Assembly: GCA_026989015.1 (NCBI GenBank)
Contig: JALSKD010000198.1
Location: 1 to 36,241 of the forward strand
Source of the DNA: Gammaproteobacteria bacterium
GTDB lineage: Bacteria; Pseudomonadota; Gammaproteobacteria; GCA-001735895
Reading direction: 5' to 3'
Length of the DNA stretch: 36,241 nucleotides
Position 1 is the stretch's first letter. Each line of letters begins with the position of its first letter. The translations under genes were made by a program, and so were the position numbers. Under the pieces are notes generated by a model. The model was given only the letters and a program-made list of their open reading frames with translations, did no database searches and was not told the origin of the DNA. Positions 12,129-14,189 of the stretch are shown piece by piece.

Positions 12129-12863
12129 TCAGTCGGCGGGCAGGCCTTCGGACATCAGCGGGCGCAGCGTGGACAGAAGGTTTCTGAACGTGTTGGGGTA
12201 GTCGGCCTCCTGCGCGGCGAGGATCTCCTTCATGCGCTGGCGCTGGGTGGGGGCGGCGAAGCAGGCCGGGCAGTTGTCCTCGATCACCGGCAGGCCGGCG
12301 CTGTCGGCAAAGGCGCGCAACTGCCGTTCGCGGGCATAGACCAGTGGGCGGATCACTCTCAGATCGCCCTCGTCGATGCGGTAATGCGCCTTCATGGTCT
12401 TCAGCCTTCCGCCGTGCAATGCCGACATCAGGAAGCTTTCGGCCAGGTCGTCCAGATGCTGGGCCAGCGCCAGTACGCCATAGCCTCCGGCGCGGGCGGT
12501 CTTGTACATCAGCCCGCGGCGCATGCGCGAGCAGAAGGCGCAGAAGGAGTCCTTGCCCATGTGGCGCTCGGCCAGCTCCACGACCGGCTCGCTGACGAAA
12601 TGGTAATCGATGCCCAGTGATTTCATGTAGGGGATCAGCGGGGAGGGGTCGAAATCCTCGCTCTGCGGATCGATGGTCACAGCACCCAGTTCGAAGCGGA
12701 TCGGTGCATGCCGACGGAAATGTGCCAACAGGTGCAGCAGCGAGAGGGAGTCCTTGCCTCCGGAAAGGCCGAGCAGGATGCGGTCGCCGTCACGGATCAT
12801 TGAAAAGTCGGCGATCGCGCGGCCGACCGGACGCAGCAGTTTTTTCGGGGGCTGGGCGAACAT
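12129..12863 (-). CDS. ttcA: TtcA-family tRNA 2-thiocytidine biosynthesis protein (short form)
   Basis: A 244-residue PP-loop ATPase. It has the ATP-pyrophosphatase motif LSGGKDSLSLL, a CxxC pair in SFCAFCSRMRRG and a further CxxC in DNCPACFAAPTQRQR, plus IADFSMIRDGDRI near the N-terminus. These match TtcA, which uses an iron-sulfur cluster to thiolate C32 of certain tRNAs. It is shorter than E. coli TtcA (about 311 residues), lacking the C-terminal extension, so it could be a sister subfamily with a different tRNA target. The ATG at 12863 starts MFAQPPKKLLRP; longer in-frame starts would run through the small-RNA terminator upstream. It converges directly on trkH. Confidence 0.85.
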   Translation of the reverse strand: MFAQPPKKLLRPVGRAIADFSMIRDGDRILLGLSGGKDSLSLLHLLAHFRRHAPIRFELGAVTIDPQSEDFDPSPLIPYMKSLGIDYHFVSEPVVELAERHMGKDSFCAFCSRMRRGLMYKTARAGGYGVLALAQHLDDLAESFLMSALHGGRLKTMKAHYRIDEGDLRVIRPLVYARERQLRAFADSAGLPVIEDNCPACFAAPTQRQRMKEILAAQEADYPNTFRNLLSTLRPLMSEGLPAD

Positions 12864-12973: not shown

Positions 12974-13007
12974 AAAAAAAAGCCTCAATCAAATCCCTGA
13001 TTGAGGC
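12974..13007 (-). terminator. Rho-independent terminator of the small RNA
   Basis: Read on the minus strand, GCCTCAATCA and TGATTGAGGC form a perfect 10-bp stem (13007-12998 with 12991-12982) around a six-base loop, followed by eight T (12981-12974). Its orientation shows that a transcript enters from the right. The only annotated gene on that side, pip, points the other way, so a separate minus-strand transcript is needed. Confidence 0.9.
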
Positions 13008-13121
13008 CGTTAGAGCCGTCCTGGCATGTGATTGACTTGAATATACATCCCTGAGATAGTGCCTTCCTGAACAAGCCGCCTTGCTTGAGCCATCCTTCCC
13101 TGTTCCGGCGCGTCCCTGTTG
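12974..13121 (-). ncRNA. Candidate Csr/Rsm-type regulatory small RNA (CsrB/RsmY/RsmZ-like)
   Basis: No protein gene fits here. The minus-strand transcript would run from about 13121 to the T-tract at 12974, about 148 nt. It contains eight GGA motifs, seen on the plus strand as TCC at 12994, 13019, 13048, 13065, 13093, 13097, 13104 and 13113. Most sit in CAGGGA, CAGGAA or AACAGGGA contexts, close to the CsrA/RsmA consensus. It ends in a perfect 10-bp terminator hairpin whose loop exposes GGGA. A -10 box lies just upstream, and a GacA-like palindrome lies about 90 bases upstream. CsrB-family RNAs sequester the translational regulator CsrA and are driven by GacA/UvrY/LetA. The exact 5' end is a guess. 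No known csrB/rsmZ sequence was compared. Confidence 0.8.
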
Positions 13122-13127
13122 CCTGTG

Positions 13128-13133
13128 TATATA
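13128..13133 (-). promoter_or_regulatory. -10 box of the small RNA promoter
   Basis: TATATA on the minus strand, in ACTATATACAC, about seven bases before the presumed first GGA-rich nucleotides. The hexamer 17 bases upstream (ACATCC) is a poor -35, as expected for a promoter that needs an activator. Confidence 0.5.
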
Positions 13134-13202
13134 GTGGCGATTCGGCGTCTGGATGTGTAGTGCAATAGTTGACAGACCATGTAGGAAGGCGGAAGCAGAA
13201 GC

Positions 13203-13220
13203 TGTAGGATTTTTCCTACA
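13203..13220. promoter_or_regulatory. GacA/UvrY-like upstream activating palindrome
   Basis: Perfect inverted repeat TGTAGG-N6-CCTACA with an A/T spacer. It resembles the GacA-family box TGTAAG-N6-CTTACA found upstream of csrB, rsmY and rsmZ. The centre is about 90 bases upstream of the presumed small RNA start. A second half-site, TGTAGGA, lies at 13180-13186. The palindrome also ends 24 bases before the pip ATG on the other strand, so a role at pip cannot be excluded. Confidence 0.7.
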
Positions 13221-13244: not shown

Positions 13245-14189
13245 ATGCTGTTTCCCGCGATCAAGCCGATCCAGACCTTTCATCTCGATGTCTCCGACCG
13301 CCATCGCCTCTATGTGGAGGAGTGCGGCACCCGCAGCGGCGTGCCAGTGGTGTTTCTTCACGGCGGTCCGGGGGGCAGCGCGGAGCCGGCGCACCGGCGC
13401 TATTTCGATCCCGAACGCTACCGCATCATCCTGTTCGATCAGCGCGGCTGCGGCAAGTCCTCGCCCCATGCCAGCCTTGAGGAGAACACCACCCAGGACC
13501 TGATCGAGGACATGGAGAAGATCCGCGAGCACCTGGGCATAGATCGCTGGGTGCTGTTCGGCGGTTCATGGGGTTCAACGCTTGCACTGGCCTATGCCGA
13601 GGCCCATCCGCAGCGTGTGCTCGGGCTGGTACTGCGCGGTATTTTCCTGTGTCGTGAACGGGACATCCGCTGGTTCTACCAGGAAGGGGCTTCGCGACTC
13701 TATCCGGATGCCTGGGCACAGTTCGTGGCACCGATTCCCGAGGACGAGCGGGACGACATGGTCGCCGCCTACCACCGCCGGCTCACCGGCGACAACGAGA
13801 TCGAGCGCATGGCGGCGGCCAAGGCCTGGTCGATCTGGGAAGGCAGTACCGCCACCCTGCGCCCGGATCCGGGCGTGCTTGGCTACTTCGCGCATCCGCA
13901 TACGGCGCTGTCGATCGCGCGCATCGAATGCCATTACTTCTTCAACAAGTGCTTCTTCGAGGAGAACGCGCTGCTGCAGAATCTGGGCCGTATCACCCAT
14001 CTGCCCGCCTATATCGTGCATGGGCGCTACGACGTGATCTGCCCCATCGATCAGGCCTTTGCCCTGCATGAGCAGTGGCCGGGCAGTGAACTGAAGGTCA
14101 TCTCCGATGCCGGACACGCGGTATCGGAGCCGGGCATCAGCCGCGCGCTGGTGGACAGCACCAACGCGATGCTTGATCGCGTCGAATAG
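13245..14189 (+). CDS. pip: Proline iminopeptidase
   Basis: Cytoplasmic alpha/beta-hydrolase (peptidase family S33) that releases N-terminal proline from peptides. The 314-residue protein has the oxyanion motif HGGPGG (39-44), DQRGCGKS (65-72), the nucleophile Ser108 in GGSWGS, and probable acid and base in HGRYDVICP and DAGHAVSEP near the end. Length and motifs match proteobacterial Pip. It starts downstream of the small-RNA regulatory region and is followed after six bases by dtd. No clear promoter of its own is visible. A TTGACA at 13169 has no matching -10. Confidence 0.95.
   Translation: MLFPAIKPIQTFHLDVSDRHRLYVEECGTRSGVPVVFLHGGPGGSAEPAHRRYFDPERYRIILFDQRGCGKSSPHASLEENTTQDLIEDMEKIREHLGIDRWVLFGGSWGSTLALAYAEAHPQRVLGLVLRGIFLCRERDIRWFYQEGASRLYPDAWAQFVAPIPEDERDDMVAAYHRRLTGDNEIERMAAAKAWSIWEGSTATLRPDPGVLGYFAHPHTALSIARIECHYFFNKCFFEENALLQNLGRITHLPAYIVHGRYDVICPIDQAFALHEQWPGSELKVISDAGHAVSEPGISRALVDSTNAMLDRVE

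Follow-up and report, generated by a model that had tools for sequence, protein, structure and literature searches.

The window, by which we mean the whole stretch of 36,241 nucleotides that was analysed, very probably carries a gene for a GacA-controlled, CsrA-sequestering small RNA of the Csr/Rsm type, which lies on the minus strand between ttcA and pip. The features of the locus are as follows.

12974 to 13127, minus strand: predicted Csr/Rsm-type small RNA (sRNA) gene, about 147-154 nt, with 8 GGA motifs (5 of them as ANGGA), conserved in 9 further genomes
12974 to 13008, minus strand: Rho-independent terminator with a 12-bp stem, a loop of 4 containing GGA, and then T8
13128 to 13133, minus strand: predicted -10 box TATATA of the sRNA promoter, with similar boxes at the equivalent place in relatives
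13203 to 13220, no strand assigned: perfect palindrome TGTAGG-N6-CCTACA (TGTAGGAAAAATCCTACA), a putative GacA/UvrY-type upstream activating sequence
12129 to 12863, minus strand: ttcA-like PP-loop tRNA thiolase gene, outside the RNA gene; the best NCBIfam match is TtcA, below the equivalog cut-off
13245 to 14189, plus strand: pip, prolyl aminopeptidase (TIGR01249, above cut-off), divergent from the RNA and conserved beside it

The box, the GGA sites, the terminator, their conservation and the genes for CsrA, GacA and the kinase can all be read from the sequence. From what is established for the family, we infer that GacA is phosphorylated and binds the box, that the RNA is transcribed, and that it binds and sequesters CsrA. 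A BarA/GacS-type kinase would phosphorylate GacA (UvrY type), and phosphorylated GacA would bind the palindrome at 13203-13220 and activate leftward transcription, which would end at the strong terminator. CsrA dimers would bind at roughly six conserved A(N)GGA sites, of which one is in the terminator loop, and the sRNA would titrate CsrA off the mRNAs that it targets; a sibling RNA encoded at another place in the genome would act in parallel.

GGA motifs, terminator and folding of the small RNA

The preliminary description had reported eight GGA motifs in a 148-base minus-strand segment, and our count at 13121-12974 confirmed them, at positions 7, 16, 23, 27, 55, 72, 101 and 126 of the segment. 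The perfect terminator with a GGA-bearing loop that it had described was also real (13008-12974). The start of the sRNA (about 13127) was estimated from the predicted -10 box. The mean GGA count per 148 nt over the whole minus strand of the window was 2.0, and the count of eight was the highest of all 148-nt stretches of that strand, being reached by 0.18% of them. For the 154-nt transcript, 3.4 GGA were expected from composition-matched shuffles (p 0.007) and 4.5 from dinucleotide shuffles (p 0.014), and the five ANGGA sites gave p 0.0025 in shuffles. The GGA excess alone, modest under dinucleotide shuffling, is thus suggestive, above chance yet not decisive.

The GGA in the terminator loop had a predicted unpaired probability of 1.0, and the other GGA sites of the RNA had 0.1-0.76, so in the folding model the terminator-loop GGA is the best-presented candidate CsrA site. 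The expectation that the GGA motifs would fall in loops was borne out only in part, as just some of the GGA sites were predicted to be clearly unpaired. In the window RNA, GGA had a predicted mean unpaired probability of 0.56 and other G/A one of 0.45; over 12 RNAs the values were 0.53 and 0.37, respectively. The overall folding of the window RNA was no better than that of shuffles (z -1.1 to -1.3).

A GacA-type box upstream of the RNA

The palindrome, which the preliminary description had missed, has its centre about 90 bp upstream of the predicted RNA start, with the -10 box TATATA in between, and it was the sole perfect match within the window. The UvrY/GacA box before csrB genes is TGTAAGN6CTTACA (PMC3171408), and a palindromic upstream activating sequence also precedes rsmX, rsmY and rsmZ (PMC2375449). 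Genome-wide scans by pattern and family searches found the exact TGTAGG-N6-CCTACA at two sites in the 2.9-Mb genome, and a terminated GGA-rich RNA followed at both. The wider pattern TGTRRG-N6-CYYACA occurred at five places in the genome by pattern search, and no terminated GGA array was found beside the three TGTGGG-type sites. Across 23 genomes of the family there were 29 such box sites versus 1 for the reversed-pattern control, while 13 other members of the class had 0 versus 3 for the control.

An extra single half-site (CCTACA on the sRNA strand) lies downstream of the palindrome at 13180-13185 and was also seen in genus g1 and most genomes of genus g2. Two g2 loci (L147 and L152) carry a perfect TGTAGG-N6-CCTACA without an adjoining GGA array. 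The palindrome also lies only about 25 bp ahead of the pip start codon (13245), so GacA might affect pip expression too.

A sibling RNA and the Gac/Csr regulators in the same genome

The second exact copy of the box is on another contig (C128, locus L003, 1586-1752), and it is followed by an RNA-like stretch with six GGA and a terminator of the form CCCTCGG...CCGAGGG-T8. Since this second exact box also fronts a terminated GGA-rich RNA, there would be at least two sibling RNAs, and the suggestion that the window RNA is one of several was borne out. The sibling RNA with an identical box was kept in the sister genome G001, and similar boxed stretches were found in G005 and G007. At L003, and also at L106, the genes on its two sides, both named by eye, are one for an FtsX-like ABC transporter permease and a convergent one for a VIT/CCC1-type-like membrane protein.

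CsrA is encoded in the genome, above the family cut-off. A response regulator had UvrY/SirA/GacA as its best NCBIfam match, at 247 bits and below the 280-bit cut-off, and its gene lies directly before uvrC. A gene placed immediately before uvrC is the usual gacA/uvrY arrangement. This regulator was located with an approximate E. coli UvrY query, and its identity rests on the NCBIfam match together with the uvrC synteny. A hybrid kinase of 907 aa had BarA as its best NCBIfam match, with 537 bits, which is below the 890-bit cut-off, and it showed the BarA/GacS-type domains sCache_4, HAMP, HisKA, HATPase and receiver (REC), with Hpt sub-threshold. The reading of the locus as a Csr-type RNA was strengthened by the conserved A(N)GGA sites, the terminator, the lack of a conserved reading frame, the GacA box, the CsrA, GacA and GacS genes, the sibling RNA, and the conservation; nearly all the predictions for such an RNA that could be examined at sequence level agreed with it.

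Conservation in relatives

The RNA was searched for by DNA in 57 relatives and was found in the sole other g1 genome (the sister species) and in eight g2 genomes, always between ttcA and pip. The ttcA-RNA-pip synteny was therefore present in nine further genomes, with six of the GGA sites largely kept and the terminator retained. In the alignment of the ten RNAs, GGA stood at six columns in at least nine sequences, and at four columns, terminator loop included, in all ten; mean identity was 0.98 at GGA columns versus 0.84 elsewhere. Both half-sites of the box were perfect in 8 of the 10 genomes, with one half-site mismatch each in G001 (L086) and at L089. RNAalifold, applied to the ten g1/g2 sequences, gave a consensus with little covariation. 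A stretch of ten bases, AAGTCAATCA (13029-13038, minus strand), is nearly all invariant in g1/g2 and resembles the 5' arm of the terminator; its role is possibly antisense pairing.

In genus g3, plain DNA similarity to the RNA was lost, and the sequence upstream of pip was inspected directly in 13 genomes. In 12 of them the box deviated by no more than one half-site mismatch, and the region also held, similarly spaced, GGA motifs, a T-run and usually a TATACT-like -10 box. The GTGC-AGGGAN-GCAC hairpin and the terminator of ten g3 RNAs were paired in 89% of cells versus 21-39% when slid. Changes on both sides occurred at five pairs; since four of them sit within the terminator, leaving one compensated pair in the GGA-loop hairpin, the covariation for that hairpin itself is thin. 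GGA density is variable in this genus, as some g3 RNAs carry just two or three GGA. A pyrimidine-rich element, TCTCTCCTCGAGAT (alignment A2, columns 108-121), is nearly invariant in nine of ten g3 RNAs and absent from g1/g2, and it could pair with Shine-Dalgarno-like sequences. In genome G021 (L125/L128), the pip reading frame seems to break in two near residue 207, through a frameshift or an assembly error.

Beyond these genera, the ttcA-pip interval of Ectothiorhodospira shaposhnikovii (L039), the closest named relative seen to carry both box and array, holds the box TGTAAGAAAATCCCTACA, ten GGA within 154 nt and a terminator whose loop contains GGA, and in E. magna (L010) the box was kept with a shorter and poorer array. 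No box was present at the remaining named pip loci that were examined, those of Pseudomonas among them. Plasticicumulans lactativorans (L011) has a CsrB-like stretch of about 18 GGA in 340 nt, about 200-400 nt upstream of pip, with no recognisable GacA box.

Alternative explanations

Because ttcA follows the RNA on its own strand, we examined whether the segment is instead the 5' leader of ttcA, with the premature terminator serving as an attenuator or a CsrA-sensitive switch of that gene. In the window ttcA begins 110 bp downstream, and it is also downstream in g1, g2 and Ectothiorhodospira shaposhnikovii, so the statement of the preliminary description that a leftward terminator here could not be accounted for by any protein gene was unsafe as worded, having overlooked ttcA (12863-12129). 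It was right all the same: pip still has the RNA, with its box and terminator, beside it in 11 g3 genomes, but there the ttcA relative (35-41% identical) lies on the pip strand and converges with the RNA, and for this reason we rejected the leader reading, which we regard as very unlikely. The ttcA-pip interval, proposed as the locus of the RNA, is thus kept in g1/g2, but the constant neighbour is pip and not ttcA. Of 10 intervals, 8 also have a separate -10-like TATCAT after the terminator and ahead of ttcA, and the sibling RNA does not adjoin ttcA. No conserved alternative partner for the terminator was found: an antiterminator formed by AAGTCAATCA and the 3' arm of the terminator was unsupported, as the match to that arm is lost in L093. 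Judged from this gene order, the RNA gene is independent of ttcA.

That the RNA is GacA-controlled but works chiefly by antisense pairing to mRNAs, with incidental GGA motifs (compare RgsA), appears most unlikely. The nearly invariant stretches outside the GGA motifs (GGCACTATCTC and AAGTCAATCA in g1/g2, TCTCTCCTCGAGAT in g3) do suggest roles beyond CsrA binding, but the six GGA sites are preserved while the remainder drifts, GGA motifs are retained in g3 despite the different sequence, and RgsA itself has one GGA only and does not titrate RsmA (PMC2375449). That a GGA run arose by chance next to a terminator unrelated to it, or that the segment encodes a small protein, has a negligible probability. 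The GGA count alone (p about 0.014 in dinucleotide shuffles) would leave some room for chance, but box, promoter and terminator are conserved with the RNA in ten genomes, and this conservation refutes both forms of the explanation, short of alignment error. A small ORF was rejected, as no reading frame common to the ten aligned g1/g2 sequences was found. The Csr/Rsm-type, GacA-controlled sponge therefore stays our reading of the locus. An extended form of it, which we consider unlikely, would be a pip-linked, lineage-wide family of Csr RNAs, with box and locus common with Ectothiorhodospira, that combine the sponge with a conserved antisense segment (AAGUCAAUCA in g1/g2 and pyrimidine-rich UCUCUCCUCGAGAU in g3); in g3, UCUCUCCUCGAGAU could pair with Shine-Dalgarno-like sequences.

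Significance and comparison with known systems

The proposed mechanism is textbook and the switch is of a known kind, but the pip-adjacent place is apparently undescribed. The analysis would place all the components of a Gac/Csr switch, namely the kinase, the regulator, its box, CsrA and two sponge RNAs, in a little-studied family of Gammaproteobacteria, for which most of the genomes analysed were fragmented drafts. The box, the pip-adjacent position and the GGA motifs persist even as the RNA sequence changes, which offers a recipe for Csr RNAs missed by Rfam: box, GGA array and terminator, with pip as anchor. The Csr/Rsm families in Rfam (CsrB, CsrC, RsmY, PrrB_RsmZ and others) gave no match at the locus with E up to 10, and none for the relatives or the sibling RNA with E up to 5. 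Over gathering and relaxed thresholds, the only Rfam matches were to Spot 42 and SdsR; they were chance-level and driven largely by the terminator, and we rejected them. A full-text literature search, whose scope did not extend to the genome-wide CsrA-sRNA prediction of Kulkarni 2006, found no description of the locus.

The GacA-controlled RsmY, RsmZ and RsmX of Pseudomonas are about 100-130 nt long, and enterobacterial CsrB carries about 18-22 GGA motifs. Like RsmY/RsmZ/RsmX, the window RNA has multiple A(N)GGA motifs, ends in a terminator, is preceded by a palindromic upstream activating sequence and has several sibling copies, and it falls in their size class; the GGA motifs and palindrome of the Pseudomonas RNAs are described in PMC2375449. 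It differs from them in its locus beside pip, the missing Rfam match and the half-site, TGTAGG here versus TGTAAG. With enterobacterial CsrB/CsrC and Shewanella CsrB1/CsrB2 it would share the CsrA-sponge design and a UvrY/GacA box upstream (PMC3171408), but it is about half their length, with 6-8 GGA, lies at another locus and does not match their Rfam models. Like RgsA it is a terminated sRNA with a GacA dependence that is here predicted. RgsA, however, has one GGA, no palindrome and no RsmA titration (PMC2375449), whereas the window RNA has eight GGA and a perfect palindrome.
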